Source: Oculatellaceae cyanobacterium Prado106
GTDB taxonomy: Bacteria > Cyanobacteriota > Cyanobacteriia > Elainellales > Elainellaceae
Assembly (NCBI GenBank): GCA_025454315.1
Contig: JALOOP010000054.1
Span: forward strand, 1-37,932
Length of the DNA stretch: 37,932 bases
Direction: 5' to 3'
Positions 181-25,750 of the stretch are shown here, in pieces. Within the stretch, counting starts at the first letter, position 1. Every line of letters begins with the position of its first letter. The notes beneath the pieces are model-generated. The model saw only the letters and a list, made by a program, of their open reading frames with translations, searched no databases and was not told the origin of the DNA. Both the position numbers and the translations under genes were made by a program.

Positions 181-2124
181 CTAAGGTTGGGGTTGAGGTT
201 GAAAAATTTGTTGCATAATTTCTTCCTGTTGGCGTTGCTGTTGTTCTAGCAATTGCTGTTGCTGTTGAACGAGCAATTCCTGTTGCTTTTTAATCACCAA
301 TTCTAAGGCACTCTGTGCCAAAGGTTGCGCTGAATTCAGTGCCAGCGATGCTTCTAGAGTGGCTTTTGCATCGTCATAGCGCTGTAAATGAGCTAGCGTA
401 ATCCCCTGTCCAGTCAAGGCATTGACATTTTTAGGATCAAGCTCCACGACACGTTGATAGGAAGTCAACGCAGCCCCATATTCCTGGAGCGCATAGAGGG
501 CAGAACCCCGGTTATACCAGGCTTGAATCGAATCTGGATTGAGCCGAATAGAGCGATCGGCAGCCACGATCGCCTCCTCATACCGCTCCAAAGACCAGAG
601 CGTGACGCTCCGATTCGCCCACATTTCTGAGTTTTGGGGATCAATCCGAATCGCCTGATCGTAAGAGGTCAGGGCAGAATCGTAGAGTCCCATGGTGCGA
701 AGTACAGTAGCCCGATTCACCCAGGCTTGAGCATAGGTGGGGTTGAGGTCGATCGCCTTTTGAATGGCCACCAGCGCACCCGGATAGTCTTGCAAATACC
801 AGGCGATCGCCCCCTTATAGTTCCAAGCTTCGACATAGTCAGGATTAATGCCCACCGCCCGATTTGCAGAAGCCATGGCATCTTCGTATTTGCCCTGTCC
901 GGTGAGGGCGATCGCGCGTTGTGTCCAGGCTTCGGCAACACCATTTTCCCGCCAGGTGCCGTCTCCTTGAATCGCTTGTTCACAGGCGGCAAAAGCGGGT
1001 TCATACTGCTTGGTTTTATTCATCATGGTGCATTGTCCGACTAATGCCAGGGAATAATCAGCTTTGATTTGCACCGCCCGAGTATAGGAGGTCAACGCTT
1101 CTTCGTAACGCCGCAGTTTTTCCAGAACTTCACCCTGACCTGTCCAGGTGATGGCATCGTTGGGATCAATGGCGATCGCTTTGTCATAGGCGGCGATCGC
1201 ATCGGTAAACTGTCCCAGGCGCGTCAACACTTTACCCTGATTCGACCAGGCAAAAGCAGGCGATTTCTCGCCCCAGTTGCCATTTCCGGCGATCGCATCC
1301 AAACAATTGCCCGCCGCTTCATCGTACTGCACCAGTTCCGTCAACGCAGCACAGCGATGGGCCAGGGTAATCGAGTCTTCGGGTTCTAATAGGAGAACGC
1401 GATCGTAGGCAATCACGGCCTGCTCATAGCGAGTCATCTGCGCCAAAATGGTCCCGCGATGCAACCAGGCCAAGGCAGGCGATCGCCGTCCCCAAGATCC
1501 GCCCACTCTGAGGGCTTCCGTGCATTGATCCAAGGCTTTTTCGGTATCATTCAGCGCTTCGTAGGCCATGCATTTGTAAGTCAAGGCCAGGGAATTTTCT
1601 GGGTCAAACAACAAGGCTTGATCTGCGGAGGCGATCGCATCAGGATAGTTCTTGAGCTTCAGTAAAATTTCACTGCGATCGGCCCAAGTCGCGGAGTCCT
1701 CGGGTTCAAGGGCAAGGGCTTGCTCACAGGCTTCTAGGGCTTTGTCATAGATGCCCGCATCGGTTTGCAGGTGACAAAGATTCGACCAATAGGTAAAGTC
1801 TTCGAGCGTCTCGAAGGTTTCGCTCCTAGCGAGGAGGGGGGAAGGGGAAGGGGAAAGGGGGAAGGGGGAAAGGGAGGTCTTTGACTGAATTCTTGAAAAA
1901 ATCGAAGAAGTTTCTCCCGTTCTCTCGTTTGCACCTGTTTCATTCCTTCCATCGATGAATCCAAGATGCCACTGTTCTCCCCACTCCCCACTCCCCACTC
2001 CCCCCACCCCAAGCCCCACGACCCCCGCCCCCCACCCCCCACCCCCCACCCCTAGAAGGTCGAGGAGAATTTGAGGACATGGTGGCGATCGCAGCACTAG
2101 GAAAAGCAAGGGCAACCACCACAA
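181..2124 (-). CDS. TPR-repeat protein with a repeat-disrupted N-terminus
   Basis: This is a protein of tandem tetratricopeptide repeats, about a dozen units from roughly residue 115 to 615, with the usual W/Y..G/A..A....A and NP motifs (for example DPENSLAL, NPDYVEAW). TPRs form helical scaffolds for protein-protein contacts, and the partner is unknown. The C-terminus is Gln-rich (residues about 617-647). The frame opens with a TTG at 2124, and residues 25-100 are low complexity: Gly-rich, then Ser/Pro-rich. Those residues are encoded by GGGGAGT-type and GGGGAAA-type heptamer arrays. A much better signal peptide lies just upstream in another frame (see 1940-2269). I infer that the native secreted protein was broken or made switchable by the arrays. 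The TPR core is certain, the start is not. Confidence 0.8.
   Translation of the reverse strand: MWWLPLLFLVLRSPPCPQILLDLLGVGGGGWGAGVVGLGVGGVGSGEWGEQWHLGFIDGRNETGANERTGETSSIFSRIQSKTSLSPFPLSPSPSPLLARSETFETLEDFTYWSNLCHLQTDAGIYDKALEACEQALALEPEDSATWADRSEILLKLKNYPDAIASADQALLFDPENSLALTYKCMAYEALNDTEKALDQCTEALRVGGSWGRRSPALAWLHRGTILAQMTRYEQAVIAYDRVLLLEPEDSITLAHRCAALTELVQYDEAAGNCLDAIAGNGNWGEKSPAFAWSNQGKVLTRLGQFTDAIAAYDKAIAIDPNDAITWTGQGEVLEKLRRYEEALTSYTRAVQIKADYSLALVGQCTMMNKTKQYEPAFAACEQAIQGDGTWRENGVAEAWTQRAIALTGQGKYEDAMASANRAVGINPDYVEAWNYKGAIAWYLQDYPGALVAIQKAIDLNPTYAQAWVNRATVLRTMGLYDSALTSYDQAIRIDPQNSEMWANRSVTLWSLERYEEAIVAADRSIRLNPDSIQAWYNRGSALYALQEYGAALTSYQRVVELDPKNVNALTGQGITLAHLQRYDDAKATLEASLALNSAQPLAQSALELVIKKQQELLVQQQQQLLEQQQRQQEEIMQQIFQPQPQP
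1833..2055. repeat. Foldback heptamer element A, inside the TPR gene 5' region
   Basis: A G-rich arm (GGGGAAG/GGGGAAA units, 1836-1887) is followed by a spacer of about 90 bp and a C-rich arm of CCCCACT units (1977-2055). The two arms have different units here, so pairing is imperfect. The element overlaps the N-terminal coding part of the TPR gene. Confidence 0.7.
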
Positions 2125-2269
2125 TCAGCCCCTGGCCAAGCCAAAGTACCCGCCCTAGAGCCTCCCCCTTTCCCCTTTTCCCTTTTCCCTTTCCCCTTTC
2201 GCCCATTTCCTCCGCTCCCTTCCGATAACTCATGGGACTAACCCTAGACCTTAAGACGATGGACACCAA
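1940..2269 (-). pseudogene. Out-of-frame signal-peptide segment of the TPR gene
   Basis: This frame contains a convincing signal peptide, LIVVVALAFPSAAIA followed by T, with an AXA cleavage site near 2070. It then enters the GGGGAGT/GGGGTGG-rich tract and ends at a stop before reaching the TPR domain. The TPR frame differs from it by one base. The simplest reading is that this was the native N-terminus of the downstream TPR protein and that repeat expansion shifted the frame. A sequencing or assembly error in the homopolymer-like tract is the main alternative. Confidence 0.5.
2161..2215. repeat. C-rich heptamer array (CCCCTTT type)
   Basis: Tandem CCCCTTT/CCCTTTT units lie upstream of the TPR gene, between it and the divergent pentapeptide-repeat gene. 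No G-rich partner arm is adjacent other than the one in element A. Confidence 0.7.
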
Positions 2270-2322: not shown

Positions 2323-3678
2323 ATGCAATTTCTAAGACTCCTTCCATTGCTGCTGCTGTTGCCCTTGCCTGCACTGGCGCTTAATCCCAACGATTTGCTG
2401 AAACTCCAGGAGAGCCGTCAGTGTGCCCGTTGTAATCTGCGCGAGGCCGATCTCTCGGGGGCTTTTCTCCGGCAGGCCAATCTCCAGCGAGCCAACCTGC
2501 GCGATGCCAATCTCAACGGTGCGGATCTGCGAGGAGCCTATCTGCGGGATGCGGATCTGCGCGGGGCGGATCTGCGAAATGCCAATCTAGAAGGCGCGAA
2601 TTTGCTGAATGCTCAGTTGGATGGGGCGCGGTTGGATAATATCCAGACTGATATCCTGACCGTGCTGGAGGAGCGGTGGCTGTTGGTGAGCGATTTGGTG
2701 ACGGAGGGGGGGCGCGATCGCGATCTCCAGGAAGCGGATCTGCGGGGAGCCAACCTAGAAGGAGCCGATCTCCGTCGCGCCAATCTTCAGGGTGCAAATC
2801 TAGAAAATGCCAGCTTAGAAGGGGCTTCCCTCAGTGGTACCAATTTCAATCAAGCGAACCTGGCTGAGGCCAGCCTCTTCATTGCCGATGCCCGCAACGC
2901 CCAGTTCAGCTCAGTCAACCTCGAACGGGGCAGCCTGCGCGCCACCGACCTGCGCCGCGCCAACCTCAACCAGTCCAACCTGACTCGCACCGATCTTCAT
3001 GCGGCCTATCTGGAAAACGCCGACCTCAGCAATAGCAATCTGAGACGCGCAGATTTGTCCGGGGCTTATCTCACCGGAGCCAATCTCAACGGCACCCAGT
3101 TGCGAAATGTCGATCTGTTTGTCGCCGATTTGCACAATGTTGATCTCAGCGGCAGTACGCTGCGTGGGAGTGATCTAGAGGGCGCAAATCTCCAGGGTGT
3201 TAACCTCCAGGGCACCGATCTGCGAAATCTCAACCTCAGCAACGCCAACCTCAGCGGCAATAACCTCAGCAATGCCAATCTCAGCGGCATGAACCTGAGC
3301 GGTGTCAATCTCTCGGGCGCAAATCTGGAAGGCGCAAACCTCACCAACGCCAACCTGCAAGATGCCAACCTGCAAAACGCCAACCTCCGCAACACCAGCC
3401 TGCCCCGCGCCGACCTCCGCCGCACCAACCTCCGTCAAGCCGATCTCAGCCACAGCAACCTCAGCCACGCCAACCTCCGAGAAGCGGATCTCGAAGAAGC
3501 CAACCTCAGCGAAACCAACCTCACCTCCGTCACCTTCCGAGACGCCAACCTCACCCGCACCAACTTCAGCAACGTCCACCTCGACGCCACCAACTTCTGC
3601 GGCGCAATCATGCCCAACGGCGAAGTCAAAGTTTGCCAAACCCTCAACCTATCCGTTCCGACTGGGGTAGCTCCTTAA
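2323..3678 (+). CDS. Secreted pentapeptide-repeat protein
   Basis: Residues 1-20 form a clear signal peptide (Leu-rich, ending ALA). After a short region with two Cys (CARCN), nearly the whole remaining chain is pentapeptide repeats of the A(D/N)LXX type (ANLRDANLNGADLRGAYLRD and so on). They are interrupted once at about residues 104-135 by a non-repeat insert. Such repeats fold into a right-handed square beta helix. In cyanobacteria many are periplasmic or thylakoid-lumenal, with mostly unknown roles. The tail holds a Cys pair (NFCGAIMPNGEVKVC), as in many family members. The ATG is preceded by AAGGTCTGAAACCCGTC, without a strong ribosome-binding site. Transcription is divergent from the TPR gene. 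Confidence 0.92.
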   Translation: MQFLRLLPLLLLLPLPALALNPNDLLKLQESRQCARCNLREADLSGAFLRQANLQRANLRDANLNGADLRGAYLRDADLRGADLRNANLEGANLLNAQLDGARLDNIQTDILTVLEERWLLVSDLVTEGGRDRDLQEADLRGANLEGADLRRANLQGANLENASLEGASLSGTNFNQANLAEASLFIADARNAQFSSVNLERGSLRATDLRRANLNQSNLTRTDLHAAYLENADLSNSNLRRADLSGAYLTGANLNGTQLRNVDLFVADLHNVDLSGSTLRGSDLEGANLQGVNLQGTDLRNLNLSNANLSGNNLSNANLSGMNLSGVNLSGANLEGANLTNANLQDANLQNANLRNTSLPRADLRRTNLRQADLSHSNLSHANLREADLEEANLSETNLTSVTFRDANLTRTNFSNVHLDATNFCGAIMPNGEVKVCQTLNLSVPTGVAP

Positions 3679-3708: not shown

Positions 3709-3912
3709 TCACGGTTGTTCGATTGCATAAACCACTTGATGAGTGCTTAGAATTTCATGGCGTCGATAAGGATTTTTCAGATATTTCTTACTTACTAAGT
3801 CAACTTCTCGCCCAAATAGGGTTTCAATTTCCTTTTGCATTTCCAGGCGGTCATTCCAGTTCAAAGCAGAATCAGGAGCGAAGGTGACTAGAACGTCAAT
3901 GTCGCTATCGGG
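3709..3912 (-). pseudogene. C-terminal remnant of a MNT-type nucleotidyltransferase, fused to the PIN gene remnant
   Basis: One base out of the PIN frame, the minus strand reads PDSDIDVLVTF, then a segment containing LFGREVDLV, and ends YAIEQP and TGA. The DSDIDVLV stretch is the second part of the nucleotidyltransferase active site (GSxARGxxxxDSDIDLLV) of minimal nucleotidyltransferases of the HEPN/MNT toxin-antitoxin class. The G-S motif and the whole N-terminal half are missing, as is any start codon. I infer that a deletion joined this tail to the PIN gene at 3905-3920. Confidence 0.75.
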
Positions 3913-4208
3913 GCGTAAGTATATTCATAACGGGCATTAATCTTTACCGCTTCTATGACCTGAATGGCAGTAATTTCAGAGATATCAAATCCAGCGACAA
4001 GCTCAGAAATGATTTCTTGAGCCTGTACCTGAGTCCGAAATTTTTTCTTAAGCAAGACGTTATATAACTCACCCAAAATTTGAGTGCTGATGATTAGAGA
4101 TTCAATATGGTCTAAAAGAAGCGAATTAACCTTTTCACATTTGTCTATTGGGTCTTTGCTGTAAAGATACACCCAAAGATTTGTATCAAGAAGAACCTTA
4201 TCGCTCAT
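3888..4208 (-). CDS. Truncated PIN-domain toxin (VapC-like)
   Basis: The start matches PIN ribonucleases: VLLDTNLWVYLY carries the first acidic residue (D8), and ILGELYNVL carries the second conserved acid (E47). The protein ends at 106 residues, right after ARYEYTY. Complete relatives continue there with a WDxLIIAxA motif holding the later acidic residues, plus about 30 more residues. That part is absent, replaced by an out-of-frame nucleotidyltransferase tail. The toxin is therefore probably inactive. It overlaps the upstream antitoxin gene by 11 bp, the usual translational coupling of toxin-antitoxin pairs. I infer that the locus is decaying. Confidence 0.75.
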   Translation of the reverse strand: MSDKVLLDTNLWVYLYSKDPIDKCEKVNSLLLDHIESLIISTQILGELYNVLLKKKFRTQVQAQEIISELVAGFDISEITAIQVIEAVKINARYEYTYAPIATLTF

Positions 4209-4440
4209 AAAGTTCGTCTCGATTAAAGTGGTAATCTTCAGGCAACTTGAAAGAGTGCTGTTGGAGTTGTTCTAAAAATCGCTGCTTCCTAAGTTCTACA
4301 GGTTGCCTATCCTTTCCTCTTTGTTGGTCAGCATCTTCTAATACAACAATCCGCAGTTTTTTACCTTCCAGCGACGCATCCAGTTTTTCATCTAGGACTA
4401 AACTGCCGTCATGATAGGTGGCTTGTAATACTCTATCCAT
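4198..4440 (-). CDS. Antitoxin of a PIN toxin pair (DUF104-like)
   Basis: This 80-residue protein has the N-terminal pattern RVLQATYHDGSLVLDEKL followed by KLRIVVLE, as in DUF104/AbrB-like antitoxins found next to PIN toxins. The C-terminal half is charged (RKQRFLEQLQQHSFKLPEDY), which suits a toxin-wrapping tail. A good ribosome-binding site (AGAGGG) lies about 8 bases before the ATG at 4440. The stop overlaps the toxin start. By analogy it should bind its own promoter DNA and neutralise the PIN partner. With the toxin truncated, only the antitoxin may still work. Confidence 0.75.
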   Translation of the reverse strand: MDRVLQATYHDGSLVLDEKLDASLEGKKLRIVVLEDADQQRGKDRQPVELRKQRFLEQLQQHSFKLPEDYHFNRDELYER

Positions 4441-4847: not shown

Positions 4848-4880
4848 TAAAAAATAAAACCCCTGGGCAGGAGCCAGGGG
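4848..4880 (-). terminator. Rho-independent terminator, minus strand
   Basis: On the minus strand the stem CCCCTGG / CCAGGGG (4874-4880 with 4860-4866) has a 7-base loop and is followed directly by TTTTATTTTTT. It would end transcripts from the minus-strand gene at 5057-5569. Confidence 0.75.
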
Positions 4881-5056
4881 TCAGAATCATCAGGGTGCAT
4901 CTACCATTCCCTTCTTCGTCGTTCTAAAGGATACATCCGGAAAGATCTGAGAAGTTTCTGATTTTACCTGAAAGTTTTTTTGACTCAGGGGATATGCGGA
5001 GAACATGAGGGCGATCGCACCCCTCTTTAACTTCCCAGCCTTCACCTCAAATTGGC

Positions 5057-6122: not shown

Positions 6123-6270
6123 GATGGGTCAACTCCTTCGCTACAGTGAATTTCTTTGAGATCTTGCATCCTAATGGACTTGACAACTGCGATCGTCCAT
6201 CACAAGTTCCAGGATAGGAGCAAATTTAGAAAAATGACCACTGTTCTTTTGGGGAGGAGGGCAGTGGGCC

Positions 6271-6455
6271 AAAGGGGAAAGGGAAAAGGGGAAAGGGTTG
6301 ACCCAGAGACAACAGAGATAAAACTTCGAGGATGTTCTCAAACAAGCAGCGGCTTGTCCCTACAGGAGCGATGCTGTAACCTCAATGGCGACAGCTACAA
6401 AGAACTTCCCCTTTCCCCTTTCCCCTTTCCCCCTTCCCCCTTCCCCCTTCCACCT
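6271..6455. repeat. Foldback heptamer element C
   Basis: G-rich arm 6271-6297 (GGGGAAA, GGGAAAA), spacer of about 108 bp, C-rich arm 6406-6455 (CCCCTTT then CCCCCTT units). The arms are complementary and could form a long hairpin. The element lies between the phasin-like gene and ffs. Confidence 0.75.
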
Positions 6456-6525
6456 TCCATCAAAATTGCCGAGGAGACAGCCACAGCATCCCCTCGGCAG
6501 ATTCAGAATCGATTTAAAAACAGGA

Positions 6526-6619
6526 GACCCGGAGATCACGCCTATCGCAAGCATCCCGTATTGCTGCTACCTTCCGGTCCTGACAAGATTTGGGCGTTGT
6601 AATCGCATGAGTCCAGGTC
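6526..6619 (-). ncRNA. ffs: Signal recognition particle RNA (4.5S type)
   Basis: The minus strand contains the hallmark SRP apical domain GTCAGGACCGGAAGGTAGCAGC, split here as GTCAGGACCGGAAGG then TAGCAGC, with the GGAA tetraloop. The ends pair as expected: GACCTGGA (6612-6619) with TCCGGGTC (6526-6533), followed by TCATGC with GCGTGA. A TTTTT run (about 6514-6519) follows as a likely terminator. The RNA is about 94 nt, the short bacterial form, and works with Ffh to target membrane proteins. Exact ends are estimated from the closing helix. Confidence 0.93.
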
Positions 6620-20275: not shown

Positions 20276-22108
20276 ATGTCGATTGATTTTCGCAATTCCA
20301 ATACTCTCTGGGCTTCGGTTCTAGCCGAAACGCTGCATCGCTTAGGCTTGACCACAGCGGTGATTTGTCCTGGCTCCCGCTCGGCTTCTCTGGCGATCGC
20401 CTTTGCCCAACATCCCGCGATCGAAGCCATCCCCATTTTGGACGAGCGATCGGCGGCTTTTTTTGCCCTGGGAATCGCCCGTCGTTCTGGCGTTGCGCCC
20501 GTCCTGGTCTGCACTTCGGGCACTGCCGGAGCTAATTTCTATCCAGCCATCATCGAAGCGAGAGAGAGCCGTCTGCCGCTGTTGGTATTGACCAGCGATC
20601 GCCCCCCTGAACTGCGCGACTGCAACGCCGGACAAACCATCGATCAACAAAAACTCTTCGGCACCTTCCCCAACTGGTACAGCGAACTCAGCCTCCCTAG
20701 CCCGGATTTGCAGCAACTCGCCTATCTCCGTCAAACAATCCTGTACGCCTGGGAGCGATCGCACTATCCCGTCCCCGGTGTCGTCCACCTCAACCTTCCC
20801 CTACGCGACCCGTTGGCTCCTATTCCCCAGGCTGAAGTGGGGGCGATCGCCGATCGGTTTCCGAGTCATTTCTTCGACCACATTCAGGGAAGGGAAAAGG
20901 CGAAAGGGGAAAGGGAAAAGGCGAAAGGGGAAAGGCGAAAGGCGAAAGGGGAAAGGGAAAATCCTTTACTCATTTACCCATCCACCTATCCACCCATCCA
21001 CCCATCCACCTCCCGCACGCTTCTGATCGCGGGGATTGATCAGCCGATTCATCCTGAAGAATACTGTGATGCGATCGCCCATCTCTCCAAGACACTCAAC
21101 GCGCCTGTCTTGGCGGAAGCATTGTCCCCAATAAGGAACTATGCCAGCCTGAATCCCCAGTTAGTTACCACCTATGATTGGATACTTCGTGATCCGCAAT
21201 GGGCTGAACAGTTTGCTCCAGACTGGGTGATTCGGGTGGGGGAAATGCCGACGAGTAAGACGTTGCGGCGTTGGTTGGAGGAAACACAGCCGCTGCAATG
21301 GGTGATTGATCCGGGCGATCGCAACCTTGACCCGCTCCACGGCAGAACGGTGATGATTCGGCGATCGCTCCCTGAAGTTGCCGCCAGTTTTTCTATTGAG
21401 AACGACGGTGGGAATGACGGGGACAATTCTCAGGAGCAGCGGCAGTATTTGCAGGCATGGGGTGAGGCGGAGCGGCGGGTGAGGCGATCGCTGGATTCTA
21501 CTTTGAGCCAGACCGAGACTTTCTTTGAAGGGAAGGTGGCTTGGATGTTGTCGCGATCGCTGCCCCCTGACACGCTCCTGTTTGTCGCCAACAGCACGCC
21601 GATTCGGGATATGGACTGGTTCTGGTGTCCGGGCGATCTTCGCATTCGGCCTTTTTGCAATCGGGGAGCCAATGGCATTGATGGCAATCTTTCCACGGCG
21701 CTGGGGATTGGCTATCGACAGGTGGAGTCGGCGGTGTTGCTGACGGGCGATTTGGCGCTGTTGCACGACACGAATGGGTTTTTGATCCATCCTCGATTTG
21801 GGGGGCATTTGACGATCGTGCTAATCAACAATAATGGGGGCGGCATTTTTGAACATTTGCCGATCGCCCAGTTTGATCCGCCCTTTGAGGAATTCTTTGC
21901 AACGCCTCAGAATGTGGATTTTGCTCAGCTATGTGCAACTTATAACGTTAAGCATGAGCGGATTGAATCCTGGAGGCAATTGGAGGAGCGGGTTAGCCAG
22001 TTATCCGGTGAGGGGATTCGGGTTTTGGAGGTGGGGTGCGATCGCAAAGCCGATGCCCAATGGATCAAGACCCATCTCGCCGCAATTTTGCATCCTCATC
22101 AGGAATAA
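20276..22108 (+). CDS. menD: SEPHCHC synthase (MenD) with an in-frame heptamer insertion
   Basis: This thiamine-diphosphate enzyme condenses isochorismate with the succinic-semialdehyde unit from 2-oxoglutarate. Visible features are ICPGSRSASLA, DERSAAFFALG with the cofactor-activating Glu57, TSGTAGANFYP, DRPPELRDCNAGQTIDQ, and the C-terminal ThDP site LTGDLALLHDTNG then INNNGGGIFE. Residues about 205-246 (GREKAKGEREKAKGERRKAK and a Pro/Ser-rich stretch PSTYPPIHPST) are encoded by GGCGAAA/GGGGAAA heptamers and a CCACCCAT array. They sit between the first and central domains, where a loop could be tolerated. At 610 residues it is longer than usual for that reason. Confidence 0.95.
   Translation: MSIDFRNSNTLWASVLAETLHRLGLTTAVICPGSRSASLAIAFAQHPAIEAIPILDERSAAFFALGIARRSGVAPVLVCTSGTAGANFYPAIIEARESRLPLLVLTSDRPPELRDCNAGQTIDQQKLFGTFPNWYSELSLPSPDLQQLAYLRQTILYAWERSHYPVPGVVHLNLPLRDPLAPIPQAEVGAIADRFPSHFFDHIQGREKAKGEREKAKGERRKAKGERENPLLIYPSTYPPIHPSTSRTLLIAGIDQPIHPEEYCDAIAHLSKTLNAPVLAEALSPIRNYASLNPQLVTTYDWILRDPQWAEQFAPDWVIRVGEMPTSKTLRRWLEETQPLQWVIDPGDRNLDPLHGRTVMIRRSLPEVAASFSIENDGGNDGDNSQEQRQYLQAWGEAERRVRRSLDSTLSQTETFFEGKVAWMLSRSLPPDTLLFVANSTPIRDMDWFWCPGDLRIRPFCNRGANGIDGNLSTALGIGYRQVESAVLLTGDLALLHDTNGFLIHPRFGGHLTIVLINNNGGGIFEHLPIAQFDPPFEEFFATPQNVDFAQLCATYNVKHERIESWRQLEERVSQLSGEGIRVLEVGCDRKADAQWIKTHLAAILHPHQE
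20887..21013. repeat. Foldback heptamer element H inside menD
   Basis: The G-rich arm 20887-20960 consists of GGGGAAA/GGCGAAA/GGGAAAA heptamers. The short spacer is followed by a C-rich run of CCACCCAT-type units (20975-21013). Three heptamers make 21 bp, so it encodes a charged 7-residue peptide repeat and keeps the menD frame. Confidence 0.8.
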
Positions 22109-25376: not shown

Positions 25377-25628
25377 GAAGCTGTCCTCAATCCCAACGAC
25401 AATAACCTCGTTCTAGTCAAGGTCATCCTCCCTCCCAACGACGATAAACCCATTTCAATCAAGGTCATCCTCCCTCTCAATGACGAGGATCTTGTTTCAA
25501 TCAGAGTTATCCTCGCTTCCAATGACGATAACCTCGTTTCAATCAGGGTTAACCTCCTTCCCAGCGACGATAACTTGGTTTCAATCAGAGTCATCCTCAC
25601 TAAAATTCTGGATAACCTCCCTCCAAAC
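25377..25628. repeat. 42-bp tandem repeat, about six copies
   Basis: Four clear units start at 25419, 25461, 25503 and 25545, with diverged units before and after. Each has the pattern (A)GGTCATCCTCCCTCCCAA then CGACGATAACCTCGTTTCAATC. The period is a multiple of three and both strands stay open: minus reads 14-residue units like MTLIETRLSSLGGR, plus reads SIRVILxxNDDNLV. Confidence 0.9.
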
Positions 25629-25631
25629 TAG

Positions 25632-25750
25632 AATCACCCCACTCCCCACTCCCCACTCCCCACTCCCCACTCCCCACTCCCCACTCCCCACTCCTCCCCA
25701 CTCCCCACTCCCCACTCCCCACTCCCCACTCCCCACTCCCCACTCCCTCC
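25632..25750. repeat. CCCCACT heptamer array (STRR1-like)
   Basis: Nearly perfect CCCCACT units run for about 118 bp, with one TCCCCACTCCT interruption. The unit resembles the short tandemly repeated repetitive (STRR) heptamers described in filamentous cyanobacteria. The minus strand is a run of GGGG blocks separated by 3 bases, a canonical G-quadruplex pattern. Confidence 0.9.

Follow-up and report, generated by a model that had tools for sequence, protein, structure and literature searches.

Heptanucleotide STRR (short tandemly repeated repetitive) sequences are known from cyanobacteria as degenerate, G/C-rich arrays that are scattered in the genomes and have been described as single arrays. 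Heptamers of the type GGGAATC occur in Xanthomonas as paired, convergent arrays with 70-75 pairs per genome, and the same report gives only few heptamer pairs for Nostoc (Rehm et al. 2015, PMC4692102). REPINs are doublets of REP sequences that form hairpins around a spacer of 71 or 110 bp (PMC3116915), and BrickBuilt of Porphyromonas gingivalis is an intergenic MITE with an internal tandem repeat of 23 nt (PMC4596501).

Here we describe a repeat family that is new as a variant of the paired heptamer repeats known from Xanthomonas, and one copy of which lies between the signal peptide and the TPR domain of a gene in the window, a stretch of 37,932 nucleotides from the filamentous-type Oculatellaceae cyanobacterium Prado106. 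Its members consist of a G-rich heptamer array, an imperfectly palindromic core of ~80 bp and a C-rich heptamer array. The arrays are degenerate like those of the STRRs, with the difference that they form the arms of a two-armed element. Common to this element and the Xanthomonas pairs are inverted heptamer pairs with the G-rich array first on either strand, a mostly intergenic position and the potential to form stem-loops or G-quadruplexes (PMC4692102). The present family differs in its unit, GGGGAAA, and in that its spacer is a conserved core found in more than 100 copies in this genome; in the accessible part of that report, no conserved core is mentioned for the Xanthomonas pairs (PMC4692102). 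REPINs likewise combine a short inverted pair with a spacer (80-110 bp in our case), high copy number, extragenic position and restriction to single genomes (PMC3116915), but the arms are heptamer arrays here instead of REP sequences, and at the two Y1 transposase loci (REP-associated, RAYT-like, PF01797) examined in its own genome no element was found beside the transposase. BrickBuilt resembles it as a miniature inverted-repeat element that carries a tandem repeat and is intergenic, whereas the heptamers are terminal here and the 23-nt repeat is internal in BrickBuilt (PMC4596501).

The host gene encodes an ordinary cyanobacterial TPR-repeat protein that is predicted to be exported (Table 1). 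Its predicted signal peptide, from the ATG at 2233 on the minus strand, reads ...LIVVVALAFPSAAIA. A first-pass annotation of this DNA had placed the signal peptide one frame away from the TPR domain, with two heptamer arrays between them. The open reading frame and repeat maps bear this out with an offset of one base on the minus strand, and they add a third array in the n-region of the signal peptide that had been overlooked. The annotation had also expected that the current state yields a TPR protein without a signal peptide, or none, and this agrees with the translation from ATG 2233 as assembled, which gives a signal-peptide fragment of 97 residues followed by a stop. As assembled, the TPR part can be made only from an internal start and without the ancestral signal peptide. 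Its 550 codons contain neither a stop nor a frameshift.

Table 1 Features of the TPR gene, of the repeat element in its linker and of the divergent neighbour. Positions refer to the window.
Feature	Position	Strand	Evidence or remark
TPR frame	181-2124	minus	ORF
TPR-repeat domain, ~550 aa	181-1833	minus	Pfam TPR_1, 5e-82; orthologues with 73-74% to ~40% identity
Whole repeat element in the signal peptide-TPR linker	1833-2052		absent from orthologues
G-rich array of GGGGAAA-type heptamers, an arm of the element	1833-1877 (1833-1874 in the repeat map)	+	tandem-repeat search
Core of the element, imperfect palindrome	1867-1968	+	model R1: 32.9 bits, E 1.3e-9; E 2.9e-7 genome-wide
C-rich array of CCCCACT/CCCCACC-type heptamers, second arm	1975-2052 (1979-2052 in the repeat map)	+	tandem-repeat search
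Signal-peptide frame	1940-2269	minus	ORF
Hydrophobic core of the signal peptide, cleavage motif VLWLGQGLIVVVALAFPSAAIA and start of the linker	2053-2164	minus	matches signal peptides of orthologues
TTG, earliest possible start of the TPR frame as assembled	2122-2124	minus	yields MWWLPLLFLVL..., not the ancestral signal peptide
Third heptamer array, in the n-region of the signal peptide	2165-2210	minus	in frame, upstream of the hydrophobic core
Most likely start codon, ATG	2231-2233	minus	lies immediately after DNA conserved in L002 and L031, the two closest orthologues
Pentapeptide-repeat protein with its own signal peptide, divergent neighbour	2323-3678	+	same neighbour in G018

Matches to the TPR protein were present in 40 of 40 genomes in the first search, and a long match at a stricter cut-off was found in 40 of 390 cyanobacterial genomes. 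In 27 of 32 TPR relatives, including the two closest, a hydrophobic leader stands directly before the TPR domain in one uninterrupted frame. The five relatives left uncounted are L039 and L044, which lie at contig ends (a partial leader is still visible in L039), the distant L006, L049, which starts within the TPR domain, and L052. The two closest orthologues, L002 (genome G018) and L031 (genome G050), are 73-74% identical to the TPR gene and both read MERLQWLGLVAAMNLFGQVPAMA...; in this stretch, L031 is identical to L032 from the metagenome-assembled genome Leptolyngbyaceae cyanobacterium CSU_1_4. The assumption that signal peptide and TPR domain belong to one gene is therefore well founded in the resolved relatives. 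The same broken frame in all relatives, which had been named in advance as speaking against a contingency locus, was not encountered, as every readable relative is unbroken. It follows that the ancestral state was one continuous gene and that the arrays in the window are an addition; judged from these sequence comparisons, the gene is split by an insertion. The linker is poorly conserved among the relatives, and its DNA has diverged too strongly for an alignment with orthologues that lack the element to give clean borders or show a target duplication. The genus was represented in the searched set by this genome alone. In the distant relative L036 (genome G304), ATTCAAC and CCCCACT heptamer arrays are located in frame in the same linker. 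Upstream of the start, the DNA at 2230-2330, between the divergent TPR and pentapeptide-repeat genes, is strongly conserved with L002 and L031, and the pentapeptide-repeat neighbour is also present beside L002. This stretch is probably a regulatory region common to both genes.

The copy in the TPR gene shows the order of G-rich array, core and C-rich array that characterises the family, and its core is recognised by model R1, which was built from 20 other copies with the copy of this locus left out. The core matches both strands of the same copies and thus is an imperfect palindrome. Sister copies on contigs C438 and C593 are 84% identical over 88 bp and 69% identical over 169 bp, respectively. 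Genome-wide, the pattern GGGGAAAGGG-N75-105-CCCTTTCCCC has 77 matches, compared to none in the reverse order, and neighbouring array pairs in 245 kb were G-then-C in 14 cases and C-then-G in none, which rules out chance pairing of the arrays. C-rich arrays also recur ~80-110 bp after G-rich arrays within the window, and the spacers of different copies are related to each other. At least about 149-151 matches to R1, some of them partial, were found in its own genome, and none in 28 other genomes (24 plus G018, G050, G304 and G207). On the basis of these searches, the family is apparently private to this genome. The paired pattern was detected in only three of 389 other cyanobacterial genomes, with 3, 1 and 1 matches, and the spacers shown for G207 and G285 are of another type than the core described here. 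Paired arrays in G207, with the G-rich heptamers first and the C-rich ones second, surround a different core (AAAAACCTCGCC...), which suggests that the paired-array topology is independent of any single core. Nearly all of 45 copies in the loci examined are intergenic, often less than 50 bp from a stop codon, and few of the 185 arrays counted in 414 kb from this genome lie deep inside open frames of at least 150 codons. The TPR gene is an exception to this placement. The arrays and spacer at the locus go beyond chance, but a repeat element that occurs throughout the genome accounts for them.

The tandem-repeat map of the window comprises 128 overlapping rows, many of them heptamers, and its tracts of ~8 perfect units sit outside genes. 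At 25384-25747, upstream of an aspartyl-tRNA-synthetase-like gene, a 42-bp tandem repeat precedes ~15 CCCCACT units that include perfect runs of 8.3 and 7.7 units; this CCCCACT tract is the most slippage-prone of the window. Several element matches are clustered within a few hundred bases on contigs C121, C263 and C400 of genome G000. Further candidate frames that bear arrays are L080, L106, L108 and L148. Within menD (20276-22108), heptamer and octamer arrays at 20890-21010 keep the reading frame and occupy a loop that varies among relatives. This indicates that arrays are tolerated in linkers and that the frame is kept where the gene is needed.

Taken together, it is probable that a copy of a dispersed, hairpin-like repeat landed in the linker of this export gene and shifted signal peptide and TPR domain by one base relative to each other. 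In the genome as sequenced, export may consequently be switched off or circumvented. One unit lost from the arms, which are tandem repeats, would undo the lesion, so that switching could arise as an occasional by-product of the element and not as an evolved contingency device. The frames rejoin by the loss of one 7-base unit, or the gain of two, in the C-rich array, and they stay apart when one unit is gained; the earlier expectation that one unit gained or lost could join them thus holds for the loss only. Reversible switching of export is a possible outcome, and the data are fitted equally well by an inactivation in the recent past, by an error in the sequence or by another start of translation. 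The layout had originally been taken for that of a contingency locus, in which heptamer slippage toggles the signal peptide and selection maintains the switch. The locus resembles coding-repeat contingency loci in that the repeat is coding and near the gene start and has a unit length not divisible by three, so that its length sets the frame. The frames would be joined by a one-unit loss and are almost open across the arrays, and the gene is otherwise intact. Unlike the long, near-perfect and hypermutable tracts of such loci, however, the three arrays are degenerate and reach at most 3.9, 3.6 and 2.9 units in an unbroken period-7 run, compared to the ~8 units of the non-genic tracts in the window, and they belong to a dispersed family. 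Furthermore, no relative shows the arrangement, and no second allele of the locus was found within the genome assembly. Because the arrays are short, imperfect arms of a mostly intergenic repeat, they do not represent a dedicated contingency tract, and a selected switch appears improbable.

Simple inactivation, by which the element broke the gene and left a young pseudogene or an unexported TPR protein, is conceivable, if somewhat doubtful. A random insertion breaks the frame in two thirds of cases, and the insert is the sole lesion of the gene. On the other hand, no decay is apparent in the TPR part: its 550 codons are intact and its rate equals that of the closest relative (5 versus 6 lineage-specific departures, no acceleration), so the event must be recent or the product is used. 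In simulations of 8% neutral divergence, ~6 stops were expected and only 0.6% of the runs were free of stops, compared to 47% of the runs at 1% divergence. An intact TPR frame after an old insertion would therefore be unexpected for a dead gene and would favour continued use in some form. More generally, the lack of stops and of acceleration implies that the insertion or loss of frame is recent, that the protein is still made, or that the tract length is misassembled. The last of these, in which the arrays contain an error of sequence or consensus and the gene is truly in frame with a long repeat-encoded linker, seems rather unlikely to us. The in-frame arrays in the same linker of L036 and in menD point in this direction, as does the draft state of the genome, a metagenome-type assembly with 609 contigs, but arrays of 42-74 bp should be shorter than the usual short read, and menD was assembled in frame with a similar array. 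We attach little probability to initiation at TTG 2124, with an AGGGG-like ribosome site before it, or to ribosome or polymerase slippage on the G runs, the latter being speculation. The TPR frame is open from 2124 and its initial residues are hydrophobic; the stretch WWLPLLFLVL, the old hydrophobic core read out of frame, might then act as a makeshift signal or anchor. Against this stand the TTG codon, the lack of a basic n-region and the conservation of the upstream DNA in L002 and L031, which favours ATG 2233.

With regard to the proposed insertion, it may be speculated, as a quite unlikely generalisation, that lineage-private mobile hairpins with heptamer-satellite ends insert into linkers and seed reversible switches of export or frame. 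If so, mobile repeats would seed new contingency switches, in this case for protein export. This touches on the general questions of whether elements of this kind move and, once in a protein linker, can create frame switches, and of why heptamer satellites in cyanobacteria and Xanthomonas form convergent, G-first pairs around a core.

A structured-RNA family was also considered as an explanation of the element and rejected, as RNAalifold revealed no consensus base pairs, and thus no covariation, in the element cores, and Rfam gave no match at the locus. Compared to shuffled sequences, the copy in the TPR gene did not fold better (z -0.43), while another copy did (z -2.58). Elsewhere in the window, Rfam detected NsiR1 (nitrogen stress-induced RNA 1) on the minus strand at 4852-4906, adjoining a heptamer array, and a bacterial small SRP RNA lies at 6523-6619, near a paired-array region at 6251-6458. 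The region 3709-4440 appears, by reading of the open frames, to contain a small toxin-antitoxin-like pair (a PIN-like protein and a short partner) that leads into a nucleotidyltransferase-like gene fragment.
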